64,000 nucleotides of DNA from Diploscapter coronatus (taxonomy: Eukaryota; Nematoda; Chromadorea; Rhabditida; Rhabditidae). A program made the position numbers and the translations under genes. The notes below the pieces were generated by a model. The model worked only from the letters and a program-made list of their open reading frames with translations. It did no database searches and was not told the DNA's origin. Location: NCBI GenBank assembly GCA_964036155.1, contig OZ038422.1:28295201-28359200 (forward strand). The letters run 5' to 3'. This document shows, in pieces, positions 6,687 to 33,600 of the stretch (position 1 is the stretch's first letter; the number at the start of each line of letters is the position of its first letter).

Positions 6687-9600
6687 ATGTCGAGCAAAAA
6701 GAAGACCGACAACAAGACGACGACCAGGTTCGAACGAACTCTCGAGCAGATTCAAGCCTTGATCAACAAAAACAAAGCTGATCTTCATCAAAACAAATCT
6801 AAAAAAATAAACTTAAACCTGCCATTTTCAGGTACAACACGCGTTCGCAGACGGCGAAGAAGAGGTCTCGTCCGGCGACTGGAACAACAGTCGCACCGGC
6901 GAATGCGAGAAAGAAGACAAAGCAGCCGGCCGGAGGAAAGAAGAAAGCGATACCAGCAGCTGCGCAGAAGGCCGAACCCGACAACCAACAGCAGGTAAGA
7001 AAATCATTGAAAATTTCTAAGTGATGTTACGCAGAGAGAGTCGTCATTTAGTAGTACATCATTCATTTTAAAATGAAAGCACATGAGCCATTTCAGGAAA
7101 TCCCCGTCGTGCCGCAACTCAGAAGGAGGAGTTTCGTCCAGGCAGCGATTCGCTTGATCCAGACGGAGATGGACGATGTGTTGAAGATCGCCGACCAACT
7201 GCAGCTGGCTGTTCCGAAGTATGAACTCTGACTTCGGCGTCATTAAAATTCAGCGTCTCAGAGACCAGTGCGATGTGCGCGGTTTTCTGCTGGAGTATCT
7301 CGATGAGAAGTGCAGTGACAAGCCGAAAGAAAGGAGAACAGTCAGGAGGACGTCGGCGTTGGACAGCGACGACGAGCAGAATCCAATCGACGGCCTGACG
7401 GACGACACGACGGCCGGCGGAAGCGAGGAAGACGAAGTGCCGTCGTTCGACGACAACATGGATGACGTCGACACGCAAACGGCACTCGAACAGGTTCACA
7501 AGGTCCAGAACGGATCGACTGGAGTCGACGGGTGAGAACTTAATTTCCATCGCCGATCTCTAACATGTTTAATTCCAGATACGGCTCTGACATGGAGATC
7601 TCGGCCGACGAGACGCCTTCGCCATCGCTAGTCGTCGCCAACCCGCCTAGAAAATCGTAAGAAACGTGATTCTTTCATGAATGATTGCATTTTCTTTTCA
7701 GAGTCCGTCAGAATCTGCGCAGAACGATGAGTCAGATGGTGCCACCGGTTACTGCCATTGCCCCGTGTCGCAATCGTGCAGCATCGTTGTCCGACGATGA
7801 GAGTGGAGAGGGCCGTCCTTTCGGGTATTTATGATTCTGGAAGATAGTCGAGGGAACGATTTTGGCTTTGAACTATAAGAATTCACTAATTTGCTTCTGG
7901 GGATCAAATTTGTTCCAGATCCAGCAGCGTCCATCAAATCCCCACGGGTGCAGGCCGCAGTTCGCTCGATCTCGCGCTTCACCTTCTGCAGACCGCAAAC
8001 GGCCAGAACATCTTCGACAAGTATGTAAAGCAAATCAGTGATTATTTTGAAGATGAATGATTAAGACAGTCTGTGTAAGACGCAGGTTTCACAAAGAAGG
8101 GAAAGGTACAAAAAGTGAAAATCAATCGAAATGGGCTGAAACTTGGCGAATAAGCTTCTATTGGACCCAGTAACCACTTGCACTGACTAGTTTTTCGACT
8201 TAATTAGCATAATTACCGTAATCAATTATGTTAATTAATTTTCCAAATTCACACATCCATGAACCAATATGAGGCTCATTCGACGCAGAATTTCACGCTG
8301 AACAAATTTGTAGCTGGATATTTCTCACAAAACCCCCGGAAAAGTACTTAAAAATTTAATTTTTTAGGTAAAATTTGTATAAGCTGCAGAAAATCGAAAA
8401 TTTCACTTGTCCAGATATCGGTGTGAGCGGTTTTGACGTCATATTCGGGTTCCTCGACCCTTTTTACCCCTAAAATGACCGGAATGGTCAGGAAACGAGA
8501 TGCCAGAAACCCACTTGTAACGTTCGAAAATGTTTTATTTTTTACCCTTCTTTCAGTATAGAGCAGGAACCATGCCGGTGATATCTGTAAAATGGTTGTT
8601 AACTCCCAAGTGTTATACATTTTTGTAATCCTCACGCACTGGAGGTTATCCTATGCCGAAAAACAATTTTTTTTAAATATCTATTTTCGCGGAAATGCGT
8701 ACTTTTCGGCTCGTACTGTATTTACAAGTGTAAAGTGAGTTAACGTCGGAGTTTTCCATGAAATCTTGTAGAGCTCTTCAAGTTGACCACTTTTGTTCCA
8801 AAACTTATTCTAGAATGTGCACACACAGGGGGATATGATTTTTTGAAATTTTCTTTCATGAAAATCACCTTGGTTTTACGCATTCGGCAATTTATTTGAC
8901 CTCAAGAGCCCCCTTATTTTTTCTAAAGTTACATATTTTTATTCAGAATAAAATTCTCTATAAAATAAGATCCTTTTCAGTTGGCATCCCAAGACATCGA
9001 TGGAGTCAAAATCGCGAAAAACTGCCGCCGGTCATGGTCACTTTTTGAATTTTCAAATTTTGGTCGAAAATTGTTGATCGTAGCAGGTAGTCGTAGTTAC
9101 ACTATTTGTAGAGTTTTTCGTGGGCTATCTAATGCAAAACCCCATTTCATGTTGTCTAGAAATAAGTAAGTTATGAGTTTTTTTCTGACATGGGGTATGT
9201 AAAAGCTTGAAATCAGTATAACTGTCCACCTGCATTTTAATGAAAACAGACTGCACCACGAGAATCAGCGTGAAAAACTGAACAATGCATGTGAAAATCA
9301 GCCAAATCGACGGAGCCCTTCCTTATGACTTTGATTTTTCCTGATATCCACTCTTAAAAAAGTACATATAACAAAAGAAGAACTTTATATATTCACGAAA
9401 ATCGATTATTATTGAGTAAATATGAAGTTGCATCATTGGATGATGATAATACTGCAGCTTCAGGCTAGTTATTTTCCCGCCGGGCATCGGTTACAGGTCT
9501 TCGGACACGAAAATTATTGCAATTTTTAAATATTAAAAAATTCAAAATATACCTGATCCGTCATCAGGGAATAGTATTGCGGATCGTTGCAAAGATTGGC

Positions 9601-12600
9601 CTGAATTTAATAGTTTATCGATTTTCAAGATTAAATTAGCTTACCCTCGAAGGACAATCAGACACTCCTGTGTTAGGATTAAGTTTATCCACGCAGGTAG
9701 GTCCGGCAGTGGTCTGAGATGCGACTGAAGTGGTTCCTGATGCACCGCATCTTCCTGAATAGAGGATATATGGGATCACTTTTAACCTATTTATTTAAAT
9801 CTTACCGCATGTCTTAGGACATTGATCGGTCATCAGGCTAAATTTTATGGGAATTATATTAGGATAAATAAAAATTTGCCTACTCATAATAAACCGTGTC
9901 ATTGCAATAGGAAGCCATTCGGGGACAGTCTTAAATTTGTAAAACTTTCAAATTTGAGACGAATGAAGTTTACCGCTGACTCCAGTTTTCGGGTTGAGTT
10001 TATCCACACAGGTACTGCTAGTGGTGGTTGTAGTAGAGACATCACACCGTTCTTAAATTATTACACTTAGAATATCTCACTTATCGTAGATATGTGAGAT
10101 AATACCACACGTCTTAGGGCACTGATCGGTCATCAGACTAATTTATGGGAATTATATTAGGATAAGTAAAAATTTGCCTACTCATAATAAACTGTGTTAT
10201 TGCAATAGGAAGCCATTCGGGGACAGTCTTAAATTTGTAAAACTTTCAAATTGAGGAAGAGCGAAATTTACCGCTGACTCCAGTTTTCGGGTTGAGTTTA
10301 TCCACACAGGTACTGCTAGTGGTGGTTGTAGTAGAGACATCACATCGTCCTTAAATTATTACACTTAGAATATCTCATTTATCGTAAATATATTAAACCT
10401 TACCACACGTTTTAGGGCACTGATCGGTCATCAGACTAAATTTGATGGGAAATATTGATAAGTAAAAATCTGCCTACTCATAATAAGTCGTGTCATTGCA
10501 ATAGGAAGCCATTCGGGGGCAGTCTTAAATTTATAAAACGTTCAAACTGAGAAAGAGCGAAATTTACCGCTGACTCCAGTTTTCGGGTTGAGTTTATCCA
10601 CGCAGGTACTGCTAGTGGTGGTTGTAGTAGAGACATCACATCGTCCTAAATAGAGGATATATAGAATACCTTTTAGCCTATTTATTTAAATCTTACCGCA
10701 TGTCTTAGGACATTGATCGGTCATCAGACTAAATTTTATGGGAATTATATTAGGATAAGTAAAAATCTGCCTACTCATAATAAACCGTATTATTGCAATA
10801 GGAAGCCATTCGGGGACAGTCTTAAATTTGTAAAAGGCTCAAACTGAGGAAGAATGAAGTTTACCGCTGACTCCAGTTTTCGGGTTGAGTTTATCCACGC
10901 AGGTACTGCTAGTGGTGGTTGTAGTAGAGACATCACACCGTTCTTAAATTATTACACTTAGAATATCTCACTTATCGTAGATATATTAAACTAATCTCCC
11001 TCGTCTAGACCCTGGCTTCGTCAAGGCTTAGCCGAATTCAATTGAAAATGTTATTTGAATTATTACAAAGAAATTGCTTTTAATTTTGACTATTTGAATT
11101 GGGATATAATTTTAAATTTTATGTGAATTTTGAACCCGAACTTGGTTAGAATTTGGCCTGGGGTTTCCGATTTTGACTTCGACCTTTAATTTGTTTAATT
11201 TGGACTTGAAATACTTTGAATTTTTGAGATTAAACATGGATTTGGATTTTCGAACCTAATACTTGAGAATTTGACCTGTTTGAGTTTTAATTTGGATTGT
11301 GAATTAAAATTTCAACCTTGATTTTTAAGTCGAACTCGCTTTATAATTTGAAATATACATGAAATGTTTATCCAAAAATTTGACTACCTTTAAAAATTAG
11401 CATAATATTGGTATTTAGATATGTAAATTAGGCAGAAAAAAACTGAATTTTTTTTTTTAAATTAGCATAAAATAAACATTTGGCCAAAATTATGAGTATT
11501 GGTCTTTCGGTCCATTATTCATTTTATCTCAACCATAGAAATTATCTGGTCCCATTGAATCTCTCTAGTTCCACCTCGACCCTAATGATAATGATCAATT
11601 CTTTGTCAAGCCTTTGCCATTATGCATTTTGAATATACGATAAATTGCTAATTTTGTCATATCTGCATTTGGAATTCCCATTCTTATTGATGACATTTCC
11701 TACTATCTGGAGACCACCTTTCAAGGCCAAGATATGTCGGATAATGACTACCCATTATTCAATTTTTCATCAGAGGAGAAACTAACGGTGAATTCAAAAA
11801 TTAGCATTTATGCTAAGTAAAAAATCCAATCGCGATAAAAACTACGTTGCACACGGATCACAATTACCTTTCGAACCATTTGTGGGTTTCCTTGCTCACA
11901 ATCAGGTATCGAGATCTAAGTTCAGACATTCAGCAATTTTACCAAAAAAGAAAGATATCAAATCCGGATGCTCCGTACTTGGTTACCATACCTTATCAAT
12001 CTTTAATCATTTGCCAATCAAATTCTAAAAATAGCAGGCGTATTCTGTTCATATGCAAATAGCCACAATTATGTAGTCCAAGAGTGGAAATAAACTTCAG
12101 ATTCAGATTCCCTTGCTTGATTATCCTTTTCCATCAGTTTTTGTCATTTTCTCATCAATCAAAAAGATGGATTTTATCATTAAAGCTTCAGTAGATAATC
12201 TTTCCAAAAAGACTTTTGAACAATGATTGCATTATCATACTCAGTTCAGTTATGAACACCGCCACGATCTGTAGACGAACCACCACTCGATCCACCCACT
12301 CTTTTTCCCTTCTTTCCCTCTTTGTCACACCTTCATTAAGTAAGGAAATGGCTTTTTGGGTAAAAGTACCCATTTCTTGGACCAAAGTCAATCGGGTTCT
12401 CTTACGTTGCACATCTGAACAAAATTACCTTTTTAACCATGCATGGCTTGTGGGGTAATTTTGCTTGGATTTTGAGAAATAAGCATTCACAGACAGACAG
12501 ACACTACAAAAGTACTAATAGAGAGAGATAATACCGCATGTTTTAGGGCACTGATCGGTCATCAGGCTAAATTTGATGGGAAATATTGATAAGTAAAAAT

Positions 12601-15600
12601 TTGCCTACTCATAATAAGCCGTGTTATTGCAATAGGACGCCATTCGGGGACAGTCTTAAATTTGTAAAACTTTCAAATTGAGGAAGAGCAAAATTTACCG
12701 CTGACTCCAGTTTTCGGGTTGAGTTTATCCACGCAGGTACTGCTAGTGGTGGTTGTAGTAGAGACATCACATCGTTCTTAAATTATTACACTTATAATAT
12801 CTCATTTATCGTAGATATATTAAATAATACCACACGTCTTAGGACACTGATCAGTCATCAGGCTAGATTTTATGAGAATTATATTAGGATAAATAAAAAT
12901 TTGCCTACTCATAATAAGCCGTGTTATTGCAATAAGAAGCCATTCGGGGACAGTCTTAAATTTGCAAAATTTTCAAACTGAGGAAGAGCGAAATTTACCG
13001 CTGACTCCAGTTTTCGGATTGAGTTTATCCACACAGGTACTGCTAATGGTGGTTGTAGTAGAGACATCACATCGTCCTTAAATTATTACACTTAGAATAT
13101 CTCATTTATCGTAAATATATTAAACCTTACCACACGTTTTAGGGCATTGATCGGTCATCAGACTAAGTGTTATGGGGATTATATTAAGATAAGTAAAAAT
13201 TTGCCTACTCATAATAAACCGTATCATTGCAATAGGAAGCCATTCGGGGACAGTCTTAAGTTTATAAAACGTTCAAACTGAGGAAGAATGAAGTTTACCG
13301 CTGACTCCAGTTTTCGGATTGAGTTTATCGACGCAGTTACCATTCGCTTAATCATAAAATCATAGTTAAATTATTCACAAATTTTTAAAATTATGAATAA
13401 TCTATCATAGATAAATTTTAGGCATGATTTTAAAAAATAAAATAAAGAGTTTATAAATCTAGTACCTGGAGTAGTAGTTTGACCCGCAACTGTAGTTGTC
13501 GTCGTCTGACCTGGAATCGTTGTTGTTGTTGTTGATACTGTCGTAGTTATCATAGGGGGTGTCGTTGTTGTAGTTGATGTAGATGGAGTTGTAGTCTGAA
13601 AATAAGTGTAATTAATACGAAAAGATGAATCGAACATGGGAAGAGAAAGTCTTAATTTTATGAAGATATGTGAGATTTAGTTGAACTAAGTAATATATGT
13701 CGCTTAACATCTTGAAAAGAGATTTTTAATATTTTTGGTCGAGACGACAAATCAGCTAAATTTTAAAATGCACCTAAAATTAGGTAATAAAAATGGAAAT
13801 GTTAAAAATAAGAATGCCATGATTTAAATTTAGTCTAGAAACTAGAAACATAAGAGATATCTGAGGAAGGGAGTTAGAAATCGTGCTGGATTTGCAAAAT
13901 AGCCAATTTTATCATCAAAAGAATAATAGCTAGAAAATTTATAGGATCACCCACAATGTGATTATGTATTTGAAATGGGGATTAAACGAAATCTTAAACA
14001 CATACCGTAGTACTGGAACTTGTTGTCTGAAAATTTAATCTAGCGTTGGAAAATTGGTGAAACTAATGATTTTTCTTCTAAATCTTCAATTGATTTTATA
14101 ATAAAAGCAATACTTACAGTAGAACTTGTACTTGGAGTTATAGTTGTCGACGTGGATGGAGTGGTAGTCGACGTGGATGGAGTGGTTGTAGACGTGGATG
14201 GCGTTGTAGTCGAAGTGGATGGAGTCGTCGTGCTTGTCGAAGGAGTAGTGGTCGACGTGGAAGGCGTCTGAAATCGCCAGTCACACACTCGAAATGCAAA
14301 ATGTCAATTTTAGCAGTACTACTTTGTTTTGAGATCATTCAGAAATTCATTCAAAAATGCAACGCTCACAGTAGTACTAGTCGATGGAGTTGTAGTCGAC
14401 GTGGATGGAGTTGTGGTCGATGTGGAAGGAGTGGTTGTAGACGTGGATGGTGTTGTAGTCGAAGTGGAAGGAGTCGTGGTCGACGTGGATGGAGTTGTGG
14501 TCGACGTGGATGGAGTTGTAGTCGATGTGGATGGCGTGGTGGTCAAAGTGGATGGCGTTGTGGTCGATGTGGATGGCGTGGTGGTCGAAGTGGATGGCGT
14601 TGTGGTCGACGTGGAAGGAGTGGTGGTCGATGTGGAAGGAGTGGTTGTAGACGTGGATGGCGTTGTAGTCGAAGTGGAAGGAGTCGTGGTCGACGTGGAT
14701 GGAGTTGTGGTCGACGTGGATGGAGTTGTAGTCGAAGTGGAAGGAGTCGTGGTCGACGTGGATGGAGTGGTTGTGCTTGTCGAAGGAGTTGTAGTCGACG
14801 TGGATGGCGTTGTGGTCGACGTGGATGGAGTTGTAGTTGATGTGGATGGCGTGGTGGTCGAAGTGGATGGCGTTGTGGTCGACGTGGATGGCGTTGTAGT
14901 CGAAGTGGAAGGAGTAGTGGTCGACGTGGATGGAGTTGTGGTCGACGTGGATGGAGTTGTAGTCGAAGTGGAAGGAGTCGTGGTCGACGTGGATGGAGTG
15001 GTTGTGCTTGTCGAAGGAGTTGTAGTCGACGTGGATGGCGTTGTGGTCGACGTGGATGGCGTTGTAGTCGAAGTGGAAGGAGTCGTGGTCGACGTGGATG
15101 GAGTTGTGGTCGACGTGGATGGAGTTGTAGTCGAAGTGGAAGGAGTCGTGGTCGACGTGGATGGAGTGGTTGTGCTTGTCGAAGGAGTTGTAGTCGACGT
15201 GGATGGCGTTGTGGTCGACGTGGATGGAGTTGTAGTTGATGTGGATGGCGTGGTGGTCGAAGTGGATGGCGTTGTGGTCGACGTGGATGGCGTTGTAGTC
15301 GAAGTGGAAGGAGTAGTGGTCGATGTGGAAGGAGTGGTTGTACTCGTGGATGGAGTGGTGGTCGAAGTGGATGGAGTGGTGGTCGAAGTGGATGGAGTGG
15401 TGGTCGAAGTGGATGGAGTGGTGGTCGAAGTGGATGGAGTGGTGGTCGAAGTGGAAGGAGTCGTGGTCGACGTGGATGGAGTGGTGGTCGACGTGGATGG
15501 AGTTGTGGTCGATGTGGAAGGAGTTGTGGTCGATGTGGATGGAGTTGTAGTCGATGTGGATGGAGTTGTTGTCGACGTGGATGGAGTTGTTGTGGTCGAA

Positions 15601-18600
15601 GTGGATGGAGTTGTTGTGGTCGACGTGGATGGAGTTGTTGTGGTCGAAGTCGATGGAGTGGTGGTCGACGTGGATGGAGTGGTAGTCGAAGTCGATGGAG
15701 TAGTTGTAGATGTAGATGGCGTCTGGAAAATGATCATTTGATTTTTTAACTCATTAAATATCTTGGCAAGTTTATCGTTGTTTCATTATTTCATTACGAA
15801 TGAGATATCATTATGAACCATAGCCAATTCTTATTAATTACAGAACATGAAGAGAACTTGTACAGAAAAAATGGTTTTTTAATCAATCTTAGTCATAACA
15901 AATCTTTTATTCGTCGATTGAAAATTCGCTTCAAAGCAACTCATACAATGATTTTCCTTCTTTCTCTCCTTCACGAAGAGGGAAGTATTTGTGTTCTCTA
16001 CCTATGCAAAAGATGGGATTCAGGAAAAGGCATAACATGTGTTCAATAGTAAAATTCATTTGGAAAAGGCGCAATACAAATAAAATAACCAAAAATTGTA
16101 TTGATCAGATAGTAAGTTGGGTTTTTAAAAACTGGTATAAAATGTATGATTTAGTTTAACCTTAATGCAACCCAAATTTATCGAGCTTTATAACATTTTT
16201 TTAATATAAATAATCATATGCTGTTTATGGGGCTAAATCATAAAATTTTTACTACGATTACCAATCAAATGCCGGTGATCGCTTTAAATAGGTAAATAAC
16301 CCATCGATTATGACTTGAATTTCATCTCTGGTATTAGCCTTCCAAATATCAGACTTCAATCATCACATTCAGATATGCCTAGTTGAGTTATGGGGCACGA
16401 TCAGACCGAGCTAACATATGACTGAGAAATATGACGTTTACCCCCCACTGAATGACCCCAAAACTGCTAAATCGATATGCTAATTACCTTAATTATCTTC
16501 TGCATTTAATTTCCTTCAATTTCATGTATGATTTCCCTAGGTACTAAATTTCCACTTGTCTTCAACAATATTCTCTAGAGTTACTATAGAAACTCATGGG
16601 ATCTGAAGAAAATAGAGGTTTTTGAGATGTCTGATTCCAGAAATACGTCATAGACCCCTAAATCTCCCACCAAATCGATTATTCTATCATATCTTACTAT
16701 TCTAGAAGTTTATAGGCGATTACATCCATCTTTCTGGCCACTGGGTTCATTAATTTCCTCAAATACTATGCACCAACTGACATGATCCCATACAAGTATG
16801 TATAGCGCTCTGGAATACATCCGAAAGCGTACGGCTTTTATCTATAATTTATCTAGGGCATCTGTTCTCCTAAAATTGTGGGTCGGGGACACGATCTGGA
16901 TATGTGACGGTCAGCCATGGGGTCATTTTGTGATAATACCTCAAAAATTCCCTATATTTGGGAAAGCACTGTTCGAAATAATGTACCCAAACATTAGAAT
17001 ACGACCTGTATTTCATCTACGGTGGCTATTCTCTAAATTTCATACCTATTTAGGCACGCTGCTTTGTGCTGTCTCCTAAAAAAGCAAAAGTGGACGGTGT
17101 TTACGCGGCACGCATTGAAACGAGCGAAAAGGAGGGGAATTTATTGTCGATCAGAAAAACGCAATTAAAGCAGCAAAAAAGTTAATTACACCCAATTAGC
17201 TCGTTCAAATATCAAAATAGAAACAATTTCGAAAATTTTGAGACCGAACACACAGGAACTTGCCAGGAGAAGTACTCGAGGTGGGCCGGAATGTTAGGAC
17301 GCTATTTTCCCCTTGAAATCGCCTGATTTCTGCTAAAATTTGTTTATTTTACGCGATTCCAGAATATTTCTGATGCTAGAATAGTTGAAGGACGTCAGTG
17401 GGCATCGATAGAATACGAAATTAGCCTGGAGCGCCACTTCTGAAACACAGCAGGGGCGCGAGAACGTACAAACTTCTTATATAAGGGAAATTGACGTGGC
17501 GGATTCTGAAGTCCCCGCGCTGAGAATTCGTTCGAAAACTACCAGAATTATTCAAAGACACCTCAAACTTGGATTATTTATCGATTTTTCGCATGTCACT
17601 TGCTGGTATTCAACGCAGAATTCAAAACGTACACCACCTAACTTACTGAACTTTTCGACTTTTTAACCAACTTGAATCTTTACCAATTTTGATGATTGAC
17701 GATGCATTAAAGTACCAGCTAAACACTATAAAAGCTTGTCAAATAATTTTTTCGAATAGTTCAGTCTATCGCAGACAATAAAACCGGAAGTGGACACAAA
17801 TCAGGTCAATAAATTCGTATTCGCTGCAAACCACGAATTTTCCTTGTTTCTGAAGCTTTTTTTTTGGATTTTCGACGACTGTTCATGAAAATTAATATAA
17901 TTTCACGTCAATTTGTTGAGAAACTTTCGCAAATACATGGTTACATGATTTTTAAAGATTTTTTGAAAGTCGTTAATTTCGTATTTCCGCGAATTGACTA
18001 CTTTTGACACGTGTTTTTGTGAATACTCAAGCAATAGTCGAAGTTTTTACATCAAGATATCCCACAGGCCTTATATTCCAAAGTTAGCTTCCGTTTTAGT
18101 CAACTTGGCACTAGAATTTTCGAGAAATTTGGCGTCTTCGGAAAAGAATTAATTTTTAGCGCGAATTCGTCATTGTGAAGAGCTAAGTAGTGCGTTTCCA
18201 GGACTGAAACTTGGTACATCCACTAATTTTTGAGGTGCTTGTTCCGATGCAAATGCAAAAAAAAACCTGGAAAAACGACATAAAATATACTAAATATGAG
18301 TAGGGACCGCCAAGCCACGTCCCTTTGCCTCGGTTCAATATTGTCCATAGTTGATAACCCTTTCCGATTATCGCAAATATTTCTTGTTTTACTTTTGTTA
18401 TACCTAATTGATCTGTACCCTACTATACAATTCGATACCACTCTTTCACGTGGTGATATCGATTTATTGATTGGGTGCGAAAGAAGTCCGCAAATGCGCG
18501 TCAAATTACGACAATGCCAATATTTCGACTAGAAGAGGTACATAAAATGTTTCTTGATGAATCGGTACACCTAGTTGACATGTACAGCATATGTAAACAT

Positions 18601-21600
18601 TAGAAAAATCCTAGGACCCGCAACTGAGATCCTGATAATCCGCGAAATATAAAAGAAGCTAATGCTGAAATGAAGAGAGTGCAGAGAAAAAGGTTCCCAA
18701 AGGCAGAGAAAGAAATAGGGGAGCGAGAGGCACAATGCGAACTCGGCGTCTCTAGCCTATTTCACAAATGAGTGATTGTTCAGTTTTCGCGTTTCACTTT
18801 TTTCTTTTCGGAAATGAATGCAGAACCCAATGACATATCCATTCATGGGTAAATCAGCGCGGTGGGGTCAGCTGGGCAAAATTACTGGCGGTTCTTATAT
18901 GCGAGTTTCAAAATATTAGTGATTCTACATACCCTTTTGCTTTTTAGGGGACGGGGAAAATATAAAGAGAAGGCGGTGTGTAACAAGATAATTGTGTTTG
19001 GATTATTATTCTACAAAAGCAGTTCTAATGAATGATGACGATCCCTTTTAGTCATCAGCAACAAGCCTTAGCATTTCCAGAAAAATGGACGAAAATAAGA
19101 GCGAACAAGTTCTAGCGGACGCGGAGAACAGCAGCAGCATGTGATATTGATGCGAGTGACAAATGGGATTATTTGAGTGAAAAGAAGCAAATGCTTACAG
19201 TGGTGCTAGTTGATGGAGTAGTGGTCGACGAGGATGGAGTGGTGGTCGATGATGATGGAGTAGTGGTTGATGTGGATGGAGTCGTCGTGCTTGTCGAAGG
19301 AGCTGTGGTCGACGTGGAGGGTGTTGTAGTTGATGTGGATGGAGTGGTGGTCGACGTGGAGGGTGTTGTAGTTGATGTGGATGGAGTGGTGGTCGACGTG
19401 GAAGGCGTTGTTGTGCTTGTTGAAGGAGTGGTGGTCGACGTGGAAGGCGTTGTTGTGCTTGTCGAAGGAGTGGTGGTCGAAGTGGATGGAGCTGTGGTCG
19501 ACGTGGATGGAGTGGTGGTTGATGTGGATGGAGTGGTGGTCGACGTGGAGGGTGTTGTAGTTGATGTGGATGGAGTGGTGGTCGACGTGGAGGGTGTTGT
19601 AGTCGAAGTGGAAGGAGTGGTGGTCGACGTGGAGGGTGTTGTAGTCGAAGTGGAAGGAGTTGTGGTCGACGTGGAGGGTGTTGTAGTTGATGTGGATGGA
19701 GTGGTGGTCGACGTGGAAGGCGTTGTTGTGCTTGTCGAAGGAGTGGTGGTCGAAGTGGATGGAGCTGTGGTCGACGTGGATGGAGTGGTTGTGGTCGAAG
19801 TGGATGGAGTGGTGGTCGACGTGGAAGGCGTTGTTGTGCTTGTCGAAGGAGTGGTGGTCGAAGTGGATGGAGCTGTGGTCGACGTGGATGGAGTGGTTGT
19901 GGTCGAAGTGGATGGAGTGGTGGTCGACGTGGAAGGCGTTGTTGTGCTTGTCGAAGGAGTGGTGGTCGAAGTGGATGGAGCTGTGGTCGACGTGGATGGA
20001 GTGGTTGTGGTCGAAGTGGATGGAGTGGTTGTGGTCGAAGTGGATGGAGTGGTGGTCGACGTGGAGGGTGTTGTAGTTGATGTGGATGGAGTGGTGGTCG
20101 ACGTGGAGGGTGTTGTAGTCGAAGTGGAAGGAGTGGTGGTCGACGTGGAGGGTGTTGTAGTCGAAGTGGAAGGAGTTGTGGTCGACGTGGAGGGTGTTGT
20201 AGTTGATGTGGATGGAGTGGTGGTCGACGTGGAAGGCGTTGTTGTGCTTGTCGAAGGAGTGGTGGTCGAAGTGGATGGAGCTGTGGTCGACGTGGATGGA
20301 GTGGTTGTGGTCGAAGTGGATGGAGTGGTGGTCGACGTGGAAGGCGTTGTTGTGCTTGTCGAAGGAGTGGTGGTCGAAGTGGATGGAGCTGTGGTCGACG
20401 TGGATGGAGTGGTTGTGGTCGAAGTGGATGGAGTGGTGGTCGACGTGGAAGGCGTTGTTGTGCTTGTCGAAGGAGTGGTGGTCGAAGTGGATGGAGCTGT
20501 GGTCGACGTGGATGGAGTGGTTGTGGTCGAAGTGGATGGAGTGGTGGTCGACGTGGAGGGTGTTGTAGTTGATGTGGATGGAGTGGTGGTCGACGTGGAG
20601 GGTGTTGTAGTCGAAGTGGAAGGAGTGGTGGTCGACGTGGAGGGTGTTGTAGTTGATGTGGATGGAGTGATGGTTGATGTGGATGGAGTGGTAGTCGACG
20701 TGGATGGAGTCGTCGTGCTTGTCGAACGAGTTGTTGTCGTATTTACGACCTACAATAATCCTTATAGTAGCATATTTTTAAGATTCATCTAAATCAAAAG
20801 AAATTTTTGATAGTTTTTTTATAGTGCAATTAACAATATTTCATAAGAAAATTTGGTTTAAAATTCTTACATTCGCACTTTTACAGCATATGCCATTTGG
20901 AGATCCGTCTTGAAGACAGATGAACCCTCCTGGGCATTTGCCCGTAGAGCAAGGGCCCTGGCCCCCATTGGAACAGGTTTGGGAGTAGGCTATAGAAATC
21001 AAAGAAAAGATAAATAGAAGATACATCATAACGTGTGGTTCTGAATCTGAAATGAATTACATTTGATAAGTTGGAATGTTCTTTTATATGATTTCCGGTG
21101 TTTAAAGTTAGTTTTTAGCCAAAGTGGGTGGATTTAGCAGAAAAAAGCTCCTGGGTCAGGCAAGAGCATCCGAAGTGAATTTTCCAAAACAGTTGATTAA
21201 ATATGAGGAGGAGTCCACTCAATTCCATTATTTGGAAAGGTGAAAAAAGTTGAAATATAATGTTGAATTCCTAGAGAAAAATTGAAAACTGCAAGCAATT
21301 GCAGAAAACCGGATCTTCGTTGCTAAAATTTCCTTTTTTGTACAATATCTGACAAAGTTTGGAATATTTCAAAAAAATTCGATAACTAATGAAAGAATGG
21401 ACGAATCGAGTTGCCCTTTGGCATACCAATACCTCTGGCGATAAGCAATAATTCTGTAGAAAAAATACTTAGATATAACGGTTAAAAACCGAGCAATTTT
21501 ACCATTTTCAAAGGGACAGAAGTTTGGAATATTTTGCAGTGGTTTTAAAAGATTTTCTATGCGGATGATACCCGAAGGTATCGGGCTCAAAAATTTATCA

Positions 21601-24600
21601 CAAGTTCCCAAGGATATGTACTTGATATCTGCCAAGTTTCATCACTATTTGATTCAGGGTTATGGAATTATGATTTTTTTTCTGACATGAGGTATGTAAA
21701 AACTTGAAATCAGTATAACTGTCCACCTGCATTTTAATGAAAACAGACTGCACCACGAGAATCAGCGTGAAAAACTGAACAATACATGTGAAAATCAGCT
21801 AAATCGACGGACCCCTGGAAACAGATTCTGGTCCTTACTGACATTCACTCTTAATAAACTACTTTTCCAAATGTCTTTGATTTTTAAATCATATTCTTCG
21901 CAAGTTTATTCAACTAACTCGTGTGCGAACACGGTTAATAATCGCGTGACTTCCTCTGGGTGTAGATGTACACTATTGCTGTCCAATACAGTTGTAGGTC
22001 AGTTACAAGGTCTTTATTCCATCATTCTATCAAATGACACGATAATCGAGCAGCCGTGCTCTACCCGATCCGAAGAGAGAAGTGAAAATGTGATGCGGGG
22101 AAGAACCCGATCACACGATAAAAGCCTGCAGTCAAAGCGTAGAAAGAAATGCAGAAAAATCTGTCCAAGAAAACACCGTCAAGTTTCAAGGAAATTACAC
22201 AGACTCGCGATTAGGATCCCTCAAATAGTCGGAGATCAAATATCATTCGAAATTATCAAAATAGGGTAAAAGGGGTGCGTATTTTCGCAGTTTTTAAATA
22301 GGATTTTCCGAATCATATTTTTCTCAGGTTTATTCAACTCTGACTAGACTGAAAAGAATACTTTAGAAAAAAAAGAGCGATAAAATATCCGGCAAGCTGG
22401 CGATGAGCAAAATGTGTTGAATAGACGAATTAGAGAAAAATTTCGATAAAAATCACCCGGAACACCTATTCGTAGACTATAAAAACCGAAAAGTTCGTAT
22501 TTTTAGGAAAAAATGAAAAGATCTCTCAAAAATCAAGTTTGGGCTAGAGGATAAAATTGAGATTTTGGGCGAGTTAGCCGAGGAAGTTCGCCGCACTAGG
22601 CGGATTTGCTGAAAGATTTTCTTTAAAAAAAATTGAAGAATTTTTAAAACTATCAACTATATAAAAATAATTTTCTCCTTGATTAAAAATTTTTCTCTTC
22701 CGTTTATTTTAAAATGATCATTTTTTCAAATTAAAAGCAATCTAACCCTGCTGTTTCGAAGTCGAGGATCCGGACACCGTCGCCGAGCCAGGGGGCGCTG
22801 TATAGTCCTGCAATTTCTATTCTCGATTTTTTATATTTAGACAAATTGCAGCTAGTTTTATCCTAAATCAAAACGAGTATGGTAAACTAGAGTTAGAAAA
22901 GGCTATAAGAATATTTCTTAAAAATAGCATGTTATATTTCCAACCTGGGCAGAAGTGGGGAGCGTGTTGGCTCCACTGGGAGTATTCATCAACACGGCCG
23001 CCGAGGGAATGCCGCCTTGCTGCTGAGCTTGGTAGAGGAACAGGGGTAGCCTAAAATAAAAATTATTTAGAGCCTAGTTTTTTTTTTTTTTAAATTCATA
23101 AATGAGATAACCAATTATACTGTTTCTAGGCTCGAAATTTCATTCTGCTAGTATCACCACGATTTTCCGCTAACAGTCAAGGAAAGGAGTGTAGTGTTGA
23201 AGGGGCAGGGACGCAGAGTTTTTTTTGAGGGAGGGCATCAACGTTGTGAGCGTTATTTTGCGGATAAACGCCATACGACGAGCCCAGTTTTGAACTCTTT
23301 CTCGATTTTCTTTTAATTTTTTTCGTAATTACCCTTATTTTCAGCACAATTCTGTGCATTTCATTCAAGAATTAATTAGTGTGGATAAAATTAATGACTT
23401 TCATAGCCGTTTTCTTGAATAAAATGCCCAAAATTGGGAATATTTCAAAGTTACAAGCAGGATTGCAACATTTTGGGTAGAAATGAAAGTTAAACATAAG
23501 AAACATTAGAAATTAGTAAAATTATCCTAAATCCAACAAAAAATGGAGAAAATTCGAAAATGAGCTAAGTTTCAAAATTGGCTAAAGTGGATATTTTCTG
23601 CTACACATCCTGAGATATTTCAAAACCAGAAACCAAGAAGAAAGTTCGAAATTTCAAGTTTTCCAAGAATTCCGGAACAAATTTTTAGGCCCAAAATAGA
23701 AAAGAGGAGCGTTTTCCACCGAGTGGCCATTGTTACGCGCGAAAAAATACCGTAACGAGCGCCGACCACTACTTCATTTTCGCCACGATGCTTTGTTTTG
23801 TCCCTTCTTCTTTTCCGTTCTCTCGCTTTTGCAATGCGCAGGTGCAAAGGAAGAGAAAAAGCGATAAAAGGAACTAAAAGCGAAAAAAAAGGAGGGGAAT
23901 TTATTGTCGATCAGGAAAACGCAACTAAAACAGCAAAAAAGTTTAATTACACCCAATTATCTCGTTCAAATATCAGAATGGGAGCAATTTCTGAAATTTT
24001 GGCACCGAATATGTGCAGGAACTCGCCAGAAGAAGCGCTCGAGGAAAGCCGAAATGTCAAGGACGCGATTTTTCTCTTAAAGTCGCTCGATTTCTGCTAA
24101 CATTTTTTATCTTACGCGATTCTAAAGTATTTCAGACGTCAAAATAGTTGAAGAAACTCAGTGGGCATCAATTGAATATAAAATTAGCCTGGGGCGCCAC
24201 TTCTGAACCACAGCAGGGACGCGAAAACGTAGTCTTTATTAGTGTTTCTGGCGTTCTGGAATTGTCGCAACGACGCAACGACGCAACATGGCGAAATAGT
24301 GTATAAAAGCGAGAGAGCATTCTTTACCCTCTCCTATCCCTGCATACTATTTCGCCTCGTTGCGACGTTGCGTCGTTGCGACAATTCCAAAACGCCGTGT
24401 TTCTAATGAAAATTTATATCTTCCTGTGTATCGAACCAAATTTTATGATTATTTTTTTATTTTGTAGATCTTGAGTAGGAGAATATGGCAAAAATATAAA
24501 GCAAATTTTTAGAAATTATTTTTAGCGGGAAAAAATTACCCTATATACCCGTACTGTATTTACAAGTGTAAAGTGAGTTAACGTCGGAGTTTTCCATGAA

Positions 24601-27600
24601 ATCTTGTAGAGCTCTTCAAGTTGACCACTTTTGTTCCAAAACTTATTCTAGAATGTGCACACACAGGGGGATATGATTTTTTGAAATTTTCTTTCATGAA
24701 AATCACCTTGGTTTTACGCATTCGGCAATTTATTTGACCTCAAGAGCCCCCTTATTTTTTCTAAAGTTACATATTTTTATTCAGAATAAAATTCTCTATA
24801 AAATAAGATCCTTTTCAGTTGGCATCCCAAGACATCGATGGAGTCAAAATCGCGAAAAACTGCCGCCGGTCATGGTCACTTTTTGAATTTTCAAATTTTG
24901 GTCGAAAATTGTTGATCGTAGCAGGTAGTCGTAGTTACACTATTTGTAGAGTTTTTCGTGGGCTATCTAATGCAAAACCCCATTTCATGTTGTCTAGAAA
25001 TAAGTAAGTTATGAGTTTTTTTCTGACATGGGGTATGTAAAAGCTTGAAATCAGTATAACTGTCCACCTGCATTTTAATGAAAACAGACTGCACCACGAG
25101 AATCAGCGTGAAAAACTGAACAATGCATGTGAAAATCAGCCAAATCGACGGAGCCCTTCCTTATGACTTTGGTTTTTCCTGATATCCACTCTTAAAAAAG
25201 TACATATAACAAAAGAAGAACTTTATATATTCACGAAAATCGATTATTATTGAGTAAATATGAAGTTGCATCATTGGATGATGATAATACTGCAGCTTCA
25301 GGCTAGTTATTTTCCCGCCGGGCATCGGTTACAGGTCTTCGGACACGAAAATTATTGCAATTTTTAAATATTAAAAAATTCAAAATATACCTGATCCGTC
25401 ATCAGGGAATAGTATTGCGGATCGTTGCAAAGATTGGCCTGAATTTAATAGTTTATCGATTTTCAAGATTAAATTAGCTTACCCTCGAAGGACAATCAGA
25501 CACTCCTGTGTTAGGATTAAGTTTATCCACGCAGGTAGGTCCGGCAGTGGTCTGAGATGCGACTGAAGTGGTTCCTGATGCACCGCATCTTCCTGAATAG
25601 AGGATATATGGGATCACTTTTAACCTATTTATTTAAATCTTACCGCATGTCTTAGGGCACTGATCGGTCATCAGGCTAAGTGTTATGGGGATTATATTAG
25701 GATAAATAAAAATTTGCCTACTCATAATAAGCCGCGTCATTGCAATAAGAAGCCATTCCGGGACAGTCTTAAATTTGTAAAACTTTCAAATTGAGGAAGA
25801 ATGAAATTTACCGCTGACTCCAGTTTTCGGATTGAGTTTATCCACGCAGGTAATACTAGCAGTGGTTGCAGTAGAGACACCACATCGTCCTAAAATTATT
25901 ACTCAGTATATCTCATTTACTGTAGATATGTGAAATAATACCGCATGTCTTAGGGCACTGATCAGTCATCAGACTAAATTTTATGGGAAATATTGATAAG
26001 TAAAAATCTGCCTACTCATAATAAGTCGTGTCATTGCAATAGGAAGCCATTCCAGGACAGTCTTAAATTTGTAAAACTTTCAAACTGAGGAAGAATGAAA
26101 TTTACCGCTGACTCCAGTTTTCGGGTTGAGTTTATCCACGCAGGTAATACTAGCAGTGGTTGTAGTAGAGACATCACATCGTCCTAAAATTATTACACTT
26201 AGAATATCTCATCTCCTTTTTAATATTTTTGTAAAGTGTATCTGTCTGTCTATGTGTGTGTTTAGGCTTATTTCTAACCACCTGTCTATCGTACCCTCAT
26301 GTATGATACTCCGTTTGATAGGTCTCAGTTACATCATGTGTAACGTGCCTTTTCCGATGACTTTTGATCTCATTTTTAGGTACTTGGAGCCAAAAGACTA
26401 TAACATGCTAATTTTGACAACGAAATTTGTAAATCGTTTGAGAGTTCATTACTGCTTCCGCAACAATGAAATGCATCCGAAGTTTCGGAATCGGAACTTG
26501 ACTTCTCAATGAGATTGAGACTGGATATGAAGAGAAAAATAGGAACTTCCAATTGCAATTGCTGACTGATAGTAGGTTTACATTTTAGAAGAGCTTTGAA
26601 AATGCATAACAGGTGGAGAATTGGTAACGAACCGGCCATTAACACTCGGGTTGAAGTGGAATGAAAAGAATTGTTTTCTAACAATTTTCGATAAAAGTAC
26701 GACTTCTCTATTCTGTCACTGTTCTGCTTTGCTCTCTTCAGCACTAGCCGGTCTGCCTATATTATTTTCGCATTTTTTTAAAAATAGTTTACAGCATGAT
26801 AATATTTTCACAATGATGTTTGTGGAATAGAAGCGTATAATGCAAATTTTGAATATGCAAAACATGAAGGGTTATAAGAAAGGTGAGTCAATGAACAGAT
26901 AATTTGTAGTTTTGACTCTCGAATTTGATACAAGTTAGCAGAATGCAAGATTGAATATAAAAGTAAAGAAAATCGCTATTTGAGTTTTATGGTTTGATGA
27001 ACTTTCAGAAGACGGGGAGCTATGAAATTAAAAATTTTGATGGTGTGAGAGTATGAACATGAAAATTAGAAATGCAACAAGTGCAATGCATGCTAATTTT
27101 TAAAATTGTTTTGGTTTTAGTGTTGTTTTGGTTTGGTATTTTATTTTGCACTTTTGTGAAGCAAAAATCCTCGATGAGGGAGACCGCGAAGCGACCGACC
27201 GAAGTCTAGTCGTAGATATATTAAACCTTACCACACGTCTTAGGGCATTGATCGGTCATCAGACTAAATTTTATGGGAAATATTGATAAGTAAAAATTTG
27301 CCTACTCATAATAAGCCGTGTTATTGCAATAGGACGCCATTCGGGGGCAGTCTTAAATTTGTAAAAGGCTCAAATTTGAGAAGAATCAAATTTACCGCTG
27401 ACTCCAGTTTTCGGATTGAGTTTATCCACGCAGGTACTGCTAGTGATGGTTGTAGTAGAGACATCACATCGTCCTTAAATTATTCCATTTAGAATATCTC
27501 ATTTACTGTAGATATGTGAAATAATACCACATGTCTTAGGACATTGATCAGTCATCAGACTAAATTTTATGGGAAATATTGATAAGTAAAAATCTGCCTA

Positions 27601-30600
27601 CTCATAATAAACCGTATTATTGCAATAAGAAGCCATTCGGGGACAGTCTTAAACTTGTAAAACTTTCAAATTTAAGAAACATTCTACGAATAACTAACAA
27701 GGGTCCGAACAATTGCAAAAGTGTCTCAGATCCGAACCAAACTTATATGGTGGATACATCCATGGACCCTAATCACAAAAGTGGGAAGATCAGGTCCTGT
27801 CCCCAAAAGTGGGCGGGGCTAGGTGGGGAGCAAGGTTAAACATTTTGACGTTTTGACTGTCAAGGGAAGGTACAAAGAAAACTTTTTTGCTATAAAAGAT
27901 TTTCGAAAAGTTATGAATTTTTATCATTTTCATAGTTAGACCCATTCAAACTGCTATACCATGCATACCACAACAGATAACTATGTAGTGTCTTCACAAG
28001 AGTTGCTCAGTTTGATGAGCTCTATCAATTGTTGTACATATTGTAAGGTATAACTCTCAAAATTGAAATTTCGATTTTTGGGTCGCCAACTTTGATGCGA
28101 TAGTGAAGTGAGTGTGATCATACCTAACTTATCGATTTTATGACTGATATTAGTGTAATTTTACCTGGAGAATCCAAATATGCAATAAAATTTTGCTGGC
28201 AAATAACAAATCTTCGAGTTATGGGCGATTTTATGCAAAAAAATGTATGTTTTTGAAACTGTCATTTTTGACACTTTTGACTTTGGGATCCCCTCCAGCC
28301 CCAAACAAGTGGTTGACTCCCTAAAGTTTATATATTTTAGAAAGTACATTCTATGGTTGTATTCACCCCTTTTTTAATTTTTCGAAAATCTTTTATAGCA
28401 AAAAAGTTTGATTTGTACCTTCCCTTGACAGTCAAAACGTCAAAATTCTCAACCTTGATCCCCACCTAGCCCCGCCCACTTTTGGGGACAGGACCTGATC
28501 TTCCCACTTTTGTGATTAGGGTCCATGGATGTATCCACCATATAAGTTTGGTTCGGATCTGAGACACTTTTGCAATTGTTCGGACCCTTGTTAGTTATTC
28601 GTAGAATGTCTCTTAAGAAGAATGAAATTTACCGCTGACTCCAGTTTTCGGGTTGAGTTTATCCACGCAGGTACTGCTAGTGGTGGTTGTAGTAAAGATA
28701 TCACATCGTCCTTAAATTATTCCATTTAGAATATCTCATTTACCATAGATATGTGAAATAATACCACATGTCTTAGGACATTGATCAGTCATCAGACTAA
28801 ATTTTATGGGAAATAATGATAAGTACAAATTTGCCTACTCATAATAAGCTGTGTTATTGCAATAGGAAGCCATTCGGGGACAGTCTTAAATTTGTAAAAC
28901 TTTCAAATTTGAGAAGAATGAAATTTACCGCTGACTCCAGTTTTCGGGTTGAGTTTATCCACGCAGGTACTGCTAGTGATGGTTGTAGTAGAGACATCAC
29001 ATCGTCCTTAAATTATTCCATTTAGAATATCTCATTTACTGTAGATATGTGAAATAATACCACATGTCTTAGGACATTGATCAGTCATCAGACTAAATTT
29101 TATGGGAAATATTGATAAATAAAAATTTGCCTACTCATAATAAGCCGTGTTATTGCAATAAGAAGCCATTCGGGGACAGTCTTAAATTTGCAAAATTTTC
29201 AAACTGAGGAAGAGCGAAATTTACCGCTGACTCCAGTTTTCGGATTGAGTTTATCGACGCAGTTACCATTCGCTTAATCATAAAATCATAGTTAAATTAT
29301 TCACAAATTTTTAAAATTATGAATAATCTATCATAGATAAATTTTAGGCATGATTTTAAAAAGATAAAATAAAGAGTTTATAAATCTAGTACCTGGAGTA
29401 GTAGTTTGACCCGCAACTGTAGTTGTCGTCGTCTGACCTGGGATCGTTGTTGTTGTTGATACTGTCGTAGTTGTCATAGGGGGTGTCGTTGTTGTAGTTG
29501 ATGTAGATGGAGTTGTGGTCGAAGTGGAAGGCGTCTGAAATCGCCAGTCACACACTCGAAATGCAAAATGTCAATTTTAGCAGTACTACTTTGTTTTGAA
29601 ATCATTCAGAAATTCATTCAAAAATGCAATGCTCACAGTAGTACTAGTCGATGGAGTGGTTGTAGACGTGGATGGAGTTGTAGTCGATGTAGAAGGAGTG
29701 GTTGTGCTTGTCGAAGGAGTTGTAGTCGACGTGGATGGAGTCGTGGTCGATGTGGAAGGCGTTGTGGTCGACGTGGATGGAGTGGTTGTGCTTGTCGAAG
29801 GAGTTGTAGTCGAAGTGGAAGGAGTCGTGGTCGACGTGGATGGAGTGGTTGTGCTTGTCGAAGGAGTTGTAGTCGATGTAGATGGAGTGGTGGTCGAAGT
29901 GGATGGCGTGGTTGTCGATGTAGAAGGAGTCGTCGTGCTTGTCGAAGGAGTTGTAGTCGACGTGGATGGAGTCGTGGTCGATGTGGATGGCGTGGTTGTG
30001 CTTGTCGAAGGAGTTGTAGTCGAAGTGGAAGGAGTCGTGGTCGACGTGGATGGAGTGGTTGTGCTTGTCGAAGGAGTTGTAGTCGAAGTGGAAGGAGTCG
30101 TGGTCGACGTGGATGGAGTGGTTGTGCTTGTCGAAGGAGTTGTAGTCGACGTGGATGGAGTCGTGGTCGACGTGGATGGAGTGGTGGTCGAAGTCGATGG
30201 AGTGGTGGTCGATGTGGAAGGCGTTGTGGTCGACGTGGATGGAGTGGTTGTGCTTGTCGAAGGAGTTGTAGTCGAAGTGGAAGGAGTCGTGGTCGACGTG
30301 GATGGAGTGGTTGTGCTTGTCGAAGGAGTTGTAGTCGAAGTGGAAGGAGTCGTGGTCGACGTGGATGGAGTGGTTGTGCTTGTCGATGGAGTGGTGGTCG
30401 ATGTGGAAGGCGTTGTGGTCGACGTGGATGGAGTGGTTGTGCTTGTCGAAGGAGTTGTAGTCGAAGTGGAAGGAGTCGTGGTCGACGTGGATGGAGTGGT
30501 TGTGCTTGTCGAAGGAGTTGTAGTCGACGTGGATGGAGTCGTGGTCGATGTGGATGGCGTGGTTGTGCTTGTCGAAGGAGTTGTAGTCGAAGTGGAAGGA

Positions 30601-33600
30601 GTCGTGGTCGACGTGGATGGAGTGGTTGTGCTTGTCGAAGGAGTTGTAGTCGATGTGGAAGGCGTTGTGGTCGACGTAGATGGAGTGGTGGTCGAAGTCG
30701 ATGGAGTGGTGGTCGATGTGGAAGGCGTCTAAAATCGCCAGTCACACACTCGAAATGCAAAATGTCAATTTTAGCAGTACTACTTTGTTTTGAAATCATT
30801 CAGAAATTCATTCAAAAATGCAATGCTTACAGTAGTACTAGTCGATGGAGTGGTTGTAGACGTGGATGGAGTTGTAGTCGATGTAGAAGGAGTGGTTGTG
30901 CTTGTCGAAGGAGTTGTAGTCGACGTGGATGGAGTGGTGGTCGATGTGGAAGGCGTTGTGGTCGACGTGGATGGAGTGGTTGTGCTTGTCGAAGGAGTTG
31001 TAGTCGATGTGGATGGAGTGGTGGTCGATGTGGATGGAGTGGTGGTCGATGTGGATGGAGTGGTGGTCGATGTGGAAGGCGTTGTGGTCGACGTGGATGG
31101 AGTGGTTGTGCTTGTCGAAGGAGTTGTAGTCGATGTGGATGGAGTGGTGGTCGATGTGGATGGAGTGGTGGTCGATGTGGATGGAGTGGTGGTCGATGTG
31201 GAAGGCGTTGTAGTCGATGTGGATGGAGTGGTGGTCGATGTGGAAGGCGTTGTGGTCGACGTGGATGGAGTGGTTGTGCTTGTCGAAGGAGTTGTAGTCG
31301 ATGTGGATGGAGTGGTGGTTGATGTGGATGGAGTTGTAGTCGATGTGGATGGAGTGGTTGTGCTTGTCGAAGGAGTCGTTGTGCTTGTCGAAGGAGTTGT
31401 AGTCGATGTGGAAGGAGTCGTTGTGCTTGTCGAACGAGTTGTTGTCGTAGTTACAACCTACAATAATCCTTATAGTAGCATATTTTTAAGATTCATCTAA
31501 ATCAAAAGAAATTTTTTATAGTTTTTTATAGTGCAATTGGCGATATTTCATAAGAAAAGTTGGCTTAAATTCTTACATTAGCATTATTACAGCATATGCC
31601 ATCTGGAGATCCGTCATCAATACAGGTGGTCCCTTTCGGGCAATTGCCCATAATGCAAGGATCAGCATTGCATATGCCATCTGGAGATCCATCATCAATA
31701 CAGCTGGCCCCTTCCGGGCAATTGCCCATAAGACAAGGGCCTAGGGCCGCACTGGAACAAGTTTGGGAGTAGGCTATAGAAATCAAAGAAAAGATGAATA
31801 GAAGATACATCATAACGTGTGGTTCTGAATCTGAAATGAATTACACTTGATAAGTTGGAATGTTCTTTTATATGATTTCCGGAGTTTAAAGTTAGTTTTT
31901 AGCCAAAGTGGGTGGATATAACAGAAAAAAGCTCCTGGGTCAGGCAAGAACATCTGAAGCGAATTTTCCAAAACAGTTGATTAAATATGAGGAGGACTCT
32001 ATTCACTTCCATTATTTGGAAAGGTGGAAAAAATTGAAATATGATGTTGAATTCCTAGAGAAAAATTGAAAACTGCAAGCAATTGCAGAAAATCAGATCT
32101 TCGTTGTTAAAATTTTCCTTTTTGTATATGGCATATTCTTTAAAAATAGAGTTTTTATAGAGGAAGGGTGGTACCCAAGAAGTCGCTCCTCAAATTCCGA
32201 GCTGATTTTTTGTTCCTGGAGGTTTTGGACTACGCTGATGACGAATCTGACGGTTAAAACCCGATCCGACCACTTGTTTCGCCTGTTCCAGAAGGGCCGC
32301 ATTAGGTAGTTCCGAAAAATTCTATTTTCGTTAGATTCTGAAAAGACCTCGTCGAAATGACATCGAATAAGGAAGTTATAATGAAAGTAGTGAAACATGG
32401 AAAATGTCATATCGATTTTTCGCTTTTTAAAATTTTTATTTTTTAAAGTGTCAGGTCCCATGAGTTATTTATACTGGGAAGTAGCCCAGGTGTTCTAGTT
32501 TCTGAAACACTTTATCGTTTTCCTATAGACTGTCCGCTAACAGAGGAATCCCACTTCTTCGAAGAGTTGTCATGACTCATTTTTGCCTAGTTTGATTTTA
32601 AAATTCATAACTCCCAGAATTCTAAACCAAATTCGATAATTCTTTTTTTATTGAACAGCATTTAATTCATAGATTATTAAGCAATAAAATAAGATTTTTT
32701 TGAAGTTCAATGACCAATTACTGCAAAGTGCCGTTTGGATAGAAAATTTAAAAAAATCATATCTTTCTGTATTTTACATCAAATTTCATGATTATTTTTT
32801 TTATTTTGTAGATCTCGAATAGGAGAATATGAAAAAAAAATTTGAGAATTATTTTTGGCGAGAAAAAGTTGCTCGAAGTTACCTTATATACCCGTACTGT
32901 ATTTACAAGTGTAACGTAAGTTAACGTCGGATTTTTCCATGAAATCTTGTAGAGCTCTTCAAGTTGACCACTTTTGTTCCAAAACTTATTCTAGAATGTG
33001 CACGCACAGGAGGATATGATTTTTTTCGTTTAACATAGCCTCATATCCAGTGTAAATAGTCCCATTTCCGGAACTCATATCTCCCGTCTGTAGCCTCTTT
33101 TTTTGACGAGTCCGATCGTTTTAGGGATTAAAAAACATGAAGAATCCGAATCTATCGGAAACTGCGTTCACATGGATATCCGAATAACCGAAATTATCGA
33201 TTTTCTGCAGTTTATATAAATTTTACCTAAAAAATAAAATTTTTAAGTACTTTTCCGGGGGTTTTGTGAGAAATATCCAGCTACGAATTTGTTCAGCGTG
33301 AAATTCTGAGTCGAATGAGCCTCATATTGGTTCATGGATGTGTGAATTTGGAAAATTAATTAACATAATTGATTACGGTAATTATGCTAATTAACTCGAA
33401 AAACTAGTCAGTGCAAGTGGTTACTGGGTCCAATAGAAGCTTATTCGCCAAGTTTCAGCCCATTTCGATTGATTTTCATTTTTTGTACCTTTCCCTTCTT
33501 TGTGAAACCTGCGTCTTACACAGACTGTCTTAATGATTGAATTTGAGCGCAATGATCGATAGCCCTTCGATGACGGACATGTCCGTGCAGGTGCTCACAC

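Follow-up and report, generated by a model that had tools for sequence, protein, structure and literature searches.

How does a block of 25,473 bp, bordered on both sides by the tetranucleotide TTAA and carrying predicted genes of its own, come to lie within a single predicted intron of another gene? The question is raised by a stretch of 64,000 nucleotides from the nematode Diploscapter coronatus (assembly GCA_964036155.1, contig OZ038422.1, positions 28,295,201 to 28,359,200; hereafter the window, whose own numbering is used unless a contig is named), in which a preliminary description had seen an undescribed giant non-autonomous element able to carry genes. We favour, tentatively and with a probability of about 0.47, the reading that the block (8061-33533) inserted into the predicted host intron as a single transposon, composite, Kolobok-like, non-autonomous and gene-carrying, and that it did so before the two chromosome copies of this genome diverged. 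Of the earlier account, the features of the sequence itself hold and the interpretation finds partial support; the rejoined intron is a prediction.

The block lies on the contig here called C1 and begins and ends with TTAA (8061-8064 and 33530-33533). Its ends form inverted arms of 444 nt (8056-8499 and 33095-33538) that are 91% complementary with 24.6 kb between them, and both tips are identical over their first 26 bases, TTAA counted; no such tips occurred in one shuffled window. The 25.5-kb block with matching inverted ends and bordering TTAA that had been described earlier is thus borne out. Seven differences fall in the outer 332 positions of the arms and 37 in the inner 113, the latter because the left and right sub-ends are of different types. 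Inside the TTAA the tips read GA...TC at both outer ends, starting with GACAG; further copies would be recognizable by ends that match TTAAGACAGTCTGTG or TTAAGAGTGGATATC. Only the outermost ends border host DNA, which favours insertion as one composite.

A second copy of the locus exists in the same genome. The assembly comprises 169.7 Mb in three contigs, namely C1 (87.7 Mb), C2 (82.0 Mb) and a remainder of 13.4 kb (by subtraction) that is probably the mitochondrion. Since D. pachys and D. coronatus have a single chromosome pair each, as stated in part of the published account (PMC9071541), C1 and C2 are likely the two diverged homologues of one chromosome. The C2 allele of the block (C2:26633118-26645750, 12,633 bp) occupies the same TTAA in the same orientation and with the same order of parts. 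The window and C2 are 90.4% alike in the left flank and 92.7% in the right part, the end included; the flanks differ at 4.8-6.0% of aligned positions and the interior at 6-8% (module M and the gene 5' region, see below), rising to 12% over a single broader stretch. The number of gene units is two on C1 and one on C2, and the block measures 25.5 and 12.6 kb, respectively. An empty allele, which the preliminary description had proposed to look for, is absent from this genome, as both chromosome copies are filled at the same TTAA, and the empty site is therefore a prediction.

This prediction is drawn from the flanks. The host gene model of 338 aa and 8 exons spans the block, and its intron 7, block included, is 25,527 bp long; once the block is left out, a single TTAA is predicted to lie in one short intron, measuring 58 bp on C1 and 60 bp on C2, and the frame remains open. 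The remaining six introns of the model are 43-104 bp long. The only homolog found for the model is the Diploscapter pachys protein WR25_20740, which matches the C2 allele at 93-100% per piece. The parts of the block and its predicted host are as follows.

6687-33665, plus strand: predicted host gene of 8 exons, with the block in predicted intron 7
8061-8064, no strand: left TTAA target copy; C2 has the same site
8061-8392, plus strand: left end, outer inverted repeat of 332 positions (7/332 differences from the right end, 26/318 from the allele)
8393-8711, plus strand: left-type sub-end, common to L024, L029, L031 and L033 (alignment by eye)
8712-9357, plus strand: module M, a high-copy TTAA family, closed by TTAA at 9354-9357
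9469-21029, minus strand: predicted cargo gene 1, with CC, Ser/Thr-rich repeat and presumed ShKT exons (extent approximate, unassembled)
21922-24247, no strand: nested repeats (about 21922-22289, 23155-23563 and 23778-24247) with many copies elsewhere
24550-25195, plus strand: second copy of module M, TTAA at its end, with 0 differences from the first copy in 590 positions (8712-9301)
25307-31813, minus strand: predicted cargo gene 2, with signal peptide, CC domain, (TPSTSTT)n and presumed ShKT domains
27672-28616, inverted arms of 242 nt (97%): nested foldback element within the ShKT part of gene 2
32125-33025, plus strand: arm and core of foldback family F, upstream of gene 2
33026-33201, minus strand: right-type sub-end, common to L028 (alignment by eye)
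33202-33533, minus strand: right end, outer inverted repeat
33530-33533, no strand: right TTAA target copy

The two ends of the block have probably not evolved independently. Within one chromosome copy, the outer left and right ends differ at 7/332 positions on C1 (2.1%) and at 11/318 on C2 (3.5%), whereas between the alleles the left ends differ at 26/318 and the right ends at 28/332 (about 8%). Sixteen informative sites group the ends by chromosome copy, all of them up to about position 325, and 26 group them by side, all past about position 338, with one site crossing; the switch falls where the left-type and right-type sub-ends start. Within each chromosome copy, gene conversion between the inverted repeats has probably made the ends alike, and the sharp switch at the border of the shared repeat records, in countable form, exchange between the two ends of a single transposon.

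Further inward, each end is joined to a family of its own. From the tip, the left unit consists of the outer repeat, left sub-end, core, module M and the TTAA at 9354-9357 (1,297 bp), and L024 shows the same arrangement of the left side, from the tip through the core to the TTAA-bearing M tail, with a deletion; no cargo exons are present in L024-L026. Module M is a separate high-copy TTAA family with 49 matches (40 of 1,315 candidates scored), and 11 inverted pairs with outward tails were counted by eye among the matches listed. The M tail reads GA inward and ends with CTCTTAA at 8/8 compared places (L024, L031, L034, three in the block, C2 and C1:16.14 Mb). The right end is fused to F, a foldback family of about 2 kb (L046, L047); the far tip of this foldback element lies directly against the gene 2 promoter region. 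The block thus amounts to two short elements of opposite orientation that enclose the genes. Separate short elements carrying either end, named in the preliminary description as grounds for abandoning a single giant element, were thus found for the left end (inner TTAA end, L024 without genes, high-copy M) and not for the right. As an observation in its own right, a piece at C1:28531674-28532900, some 203 kb away from the block, also combines F-side sequence with an M module (88% and 91% identity).

The borders of these modules bear on how the genes were acquired. The homology of the cargo to a related gene pair at C2:46.65 Mb ends at 9375 on the 3' side and at about 32137 on the 5' side, and where it breaks off, the TTAA end of M and the F tip are found in the block; neither M nor F is present at C2:46.65 Mb. 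Gene 1, gene 2, C2 and a related unit at C1:16.14 Mb share one junction between the 3' side of the gene and M, and the junction between the 5' side and the F tip is common to gene 2, C2 and C1:16.14 Mb. The junction pattern points to a single capture of a whole gene, promoter and introns included. Because these junctions are shared and M and F are missing at C2:46.65 Mb, the block and the C1:16.14 Mb unit likely stem from one capture event.

Gene 2 (31813-25307, minus strand) could be assembled through 14 exons without a stop into 898 aa, with two of the ShKT units beside the nested element incomplete. It is predicted to encode a signal peptide, a CC domain (PF04942; a 128-aa stretch matches with E 8.5e-06), an extended TPSTSTT repeat and domains that we take, from their cysteine pattern, to be ShKT. 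Exons of the same kinds are seen in gene 1 (21029-9469). The earlier claim of two intact-looking secreted-protein genes is therefore upheld for gene 2 through its stop-free exons, but for gene 1 exon by exon only. The 300-bp tandem repeats of the block are trios of ShKT-coding exons rather than a satellite; the nested transposons reported inside the block are indeed present. N-terminal exon matches were found at 8 places (10 candidates scored): the block accounts for three of them (two on C1, one on C2), C2:46.65 Mb and C1:49.85 Mb for two each, and C1:16.145 Mb for the last. Between the alleles, cargo exon 1 has 8 synonymous changes (52.2 sites) and 13 nonsynonymous ones (184.8 sites), which is suggestive only. 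The 5' region of gene 2 differs from that of C2 at 40/659 positions and that of gene 1 from C2 at 46/582, while gene 1 and gene 2 differ from each other at 51/595; the C1:16.14 Mb unit is 10-11% different from the block genes and C2 in this region. Going by these divergences, the two cargo genes may date back to the divergence of C1 and C2, and one unit may since have been lost from C2. Separately, two genes of the same CC/ShKT family stand in tandem at L043 (C2:46653001-46660000), separated by coding sequence that resembles a non-LTR retrotransposon (by eye), and a matching pair lies at C1:49.85 Mb.

Taken as one insertion event, the block would have been mobilized by a transposase acting from elsewhere that used the outermost ends only, and the short elements and the DNA between them would have moved together, as in bacterial composite transposons. 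Later, gene conversion would have homogenized the two outer repeats of each chromosome copy, and the number of gene units would have shifted through unequal exchange, to two on C1 and one on C2. A fuller version of this history, for which we see a tangible though less than even chance, is an animal composite transposon of the bacterial kind, in which two short transposase-less Kolobok-like elements captured a complete secreted-protein gene and moved it as a unit into the intron, within an asexual diploid genome where conversion in each copy kept the ends matched and the number of cargo genes changed. If this is true, whole genes in an animal can travel with short transposons that have no visible transposase of their own, and in a likely asexual nematode the divergence of the two chromosome copies allows insertion, conversion of the ends and change of cargo to be dated against each other.

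Several observations weigh against insertion as one composite. The right side has no inner TTAA end, its order from the tip inward being outer repeat, right sub-end, core, F arm and the F tip at 32125, and gene 1 has other sequence on its 5' side in place of the F junction. A 133-bp core lies in direct repeat inside both ends (8712-8844 and 32893-33025, 96%), and the first M copy is closer to the C1:16.14 Mb copy (18/886 differences, 8712-9598) than to its own allele (61/884). The host gene is less secure than had been proposed: its in-phase rejoining stands as an open frame and a 58-bp intron in the model but is a prediction only, as the acceptor of predicted intron 7 (TTTGAG) is weak, the homolog (P0001) is annotated short and ends before intron 7, leaving no homolog that spans the intron, and 6/6 base changes in exon 7 between C1 and C2 are nonsilent in the modelled frame (in either other frame, 3 are silent and 3 protein-changing). 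Genome searches for PF13843 (DDE_Tnp_1_7, piggyBac) and for THAP returned 0 matches each, in a setting where the search controls also matched nothing.

The distribution of the ends is a further point of this kind. When the genome was searched with the left 600 bp, at least 25 end matches appeared, and among the matches listed there are four inward pairs, spanning 25,473 bp (window), 12,633 bp (C2), 905 bp and 1,816 bp, and no second site with both outer ends and genes. No cargo exons were found in L038 and L028, the stretches with the 905- and 1,816-bp pairs, so that giant copies with varied cargo, which the preliminary description had led one to expect, did not appear. Its undescribed giant gene-carrying element accordingly stands as regards ends, TTAA, cargo and predicted intron site, but the left end sits on a 1.3-kb unit, no other large copy was seen among these matches, and block size is not constant between the chromosome copies. 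The tip pattern, allowing up to 2 mismatches, occurs at 25 places against 10 for the reversed control, and weak matches carry little weight. For the other tips, no clean partner on the other chromosome copy was found at 5/6 loci (pooled flank search, 40 of 285 candidates scored); L036 adjoins the C1 match beside L014, where the insertion is likely common to both copies, and the C2 region matching L024 carries different DNA there.

The unit at C1:16.14 Mb was considered as a second case of gene transposition. This element (C1:16139884-16147136) holds a related gene unit between 911-bp arms that are 96.7% alike, and C2 is without 8,001 bp at this site. The missing stretch extends 382 and 366 bp into unique sequence past the arms, no clear duplication flanking it was found, and the arms take in flank sequence, so that the element partly resembles an inverted duplication. 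A clean transposition was dropped on account of the missing unique sequence and the lack of a clear flanking duplication, with a deletion on C2 being equally likely. Elsewhere in the genome, an inverted-repeat element with arms of about 302 bp (C1:42083409-42084279 and C1 60139022, 60915298, 7125055 and 70243128) is 99-100% identical between distant sites and was probably active recently. Two further features of the window stand apart from the block. At 6483-6550, C1 has a near-perfect 68-bp palindrome (97%) that is seemingly absent on C2, where two alignments abut, and that is possibly a tiny insertion in one chromosome copy. An open stretch at 62571-63029 presumably encodes an immunoglobulin domain like that of twitchin/UNC-22, judging from its translation.

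Among the alternatives, the one that survives best, though we consider it rather doubtful, holds that a short, gene-free element of 1-2 kb with the same outer ends came first, and that the gene unit was added later by recombination at the core shared with the M and F families, followed by tandem duplication. Direct repeats of the core at both inner borders are the pattern expected if the genes entered in this manner, a related short element with a central core exists (L028), and the block is unequal in size between the chromosome copies. In addition, the two M copies of the block differ at 1/1,037 positions (8712-9748, summed windows), and the differences between the first copy and that at C1:16.14 Mb rise to 13/150 and 21/145 in the two windows that follow their closely matching part; this indicates that M copies on C1 have exchanged sequence recently, including with a site 12 Mb away. 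However, the left junction exists in gene-free form at L024, so no recombination is needed there, and the 5' regions of gene 1 and gene 2 differ about as much as alleles do, so the two units are maybe as old as the split.

Ordinary nested growth, in which two short elements inserted successively at the same TTAA and the genes were pushed between them later without the whole ever moving as a unit, seems unlikely to us. The left unit does have a second TTAA end of its own, the interior is full of nested repeats and TTAA is frequent (once every 141 bp in the window), but such growth needs two oppositely oriented hits at exactly the same 4 bp, and then a third event between the two, and the right unit shows no inner TTAA end. 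Independent insertion at this TTAA in each chromosome copy after their divergence, which the greater likeness of the outer ends within than between copies might suggest, is very improbable and was rejected, because site, orientation, gene and junctions are all the same on C1 and C2, the interior is, by its divergence relative to the flanks, about as old as the split, and gene conversion between the inverted ends explains the pattern with its sharp border.

Insertion as one composite thus leads to the question of which known system the block resembles. Maverick/Polinton elements, which occur in nematodes, are likewise large with long inverted ends, and they carry polymerase and integrase genes and make a longer target duplication. 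The block shares their size and long inverted ends and shows no such longer duplication; no polymerase or integrase was found among its 6 open reading frames (ORFs) scanned against Pfam, from which shorter or spliced coding would escape. Nor was any transposase found among the 10 ORFs scanned in this way (6 of them in the block), in line with the lack of one noted earlier. Bacterial composite transposons and maize Ac macrotransposons consist of a pair of elements with other DNA between them, and the outermost ends of the pair are used together. Movement of the block in such a manner is inferred, and of its flanking units the left owns two ends (inner TTAA, L024 without genes), whereas the inner end on the right is the F tip, not TTAA, and the right unit is without a proven second end. 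The piggyBac superfamily, including Teratorn, a giant element on piggyBac ends, shares the TTAA target with the block (PMC10175614, in part), but the ends that these accounts list start with CCYT, CACTA or CCC (passages of PMC10813416 and PMC10175614) and that of the block with GACAG. Kolobok elements, whose hosts include nematodes, have termini of the form 5'-RR...YY-3' according to passages of PMC9587614, and their transposase is a DDE enzyme, usually with a THAP domain, in the excerpted account of PMC6004289. The 4-bp TTAA target duplication of Kolobok is matched by TTAA at both borders in both chromosome copies, with the single-TTAA joint predicted, and the GA...TC ends agree with the terminal rule. 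TTAA together with 5'-GA therefore fits the Kolobok rule (PMC9587614) and not the piggyBac motifs (PMC10813416, PMC10175614) as far as these are given there, and the block likely works like a Kolobok-type composite transposon. A literature description of this element was not found, judged by titles, and a non-autonomous, composite-like TTAA transposon that carries genes and bears, in two alleles, a trace of end-to-end conversion is likely new. With the non-autonomous members of Kolobok, as characterized in part of PMC9587614, the block shares the TTAA target and the 5'-RR...YY-3' termini, and it differs in its ends of about 440 bp, the unlike left and right sub-ends, the gene cargo and the lack of a transposase among the ORFs scanned. 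The composite-like KolobokP transposons, as outlined in the same source (PMC9587614), are of the TTAA-type group and consist of sub-units with their own ends, as in the block, in which neither gene of theirs was found and whose ends, unlike theirs, are inverted.

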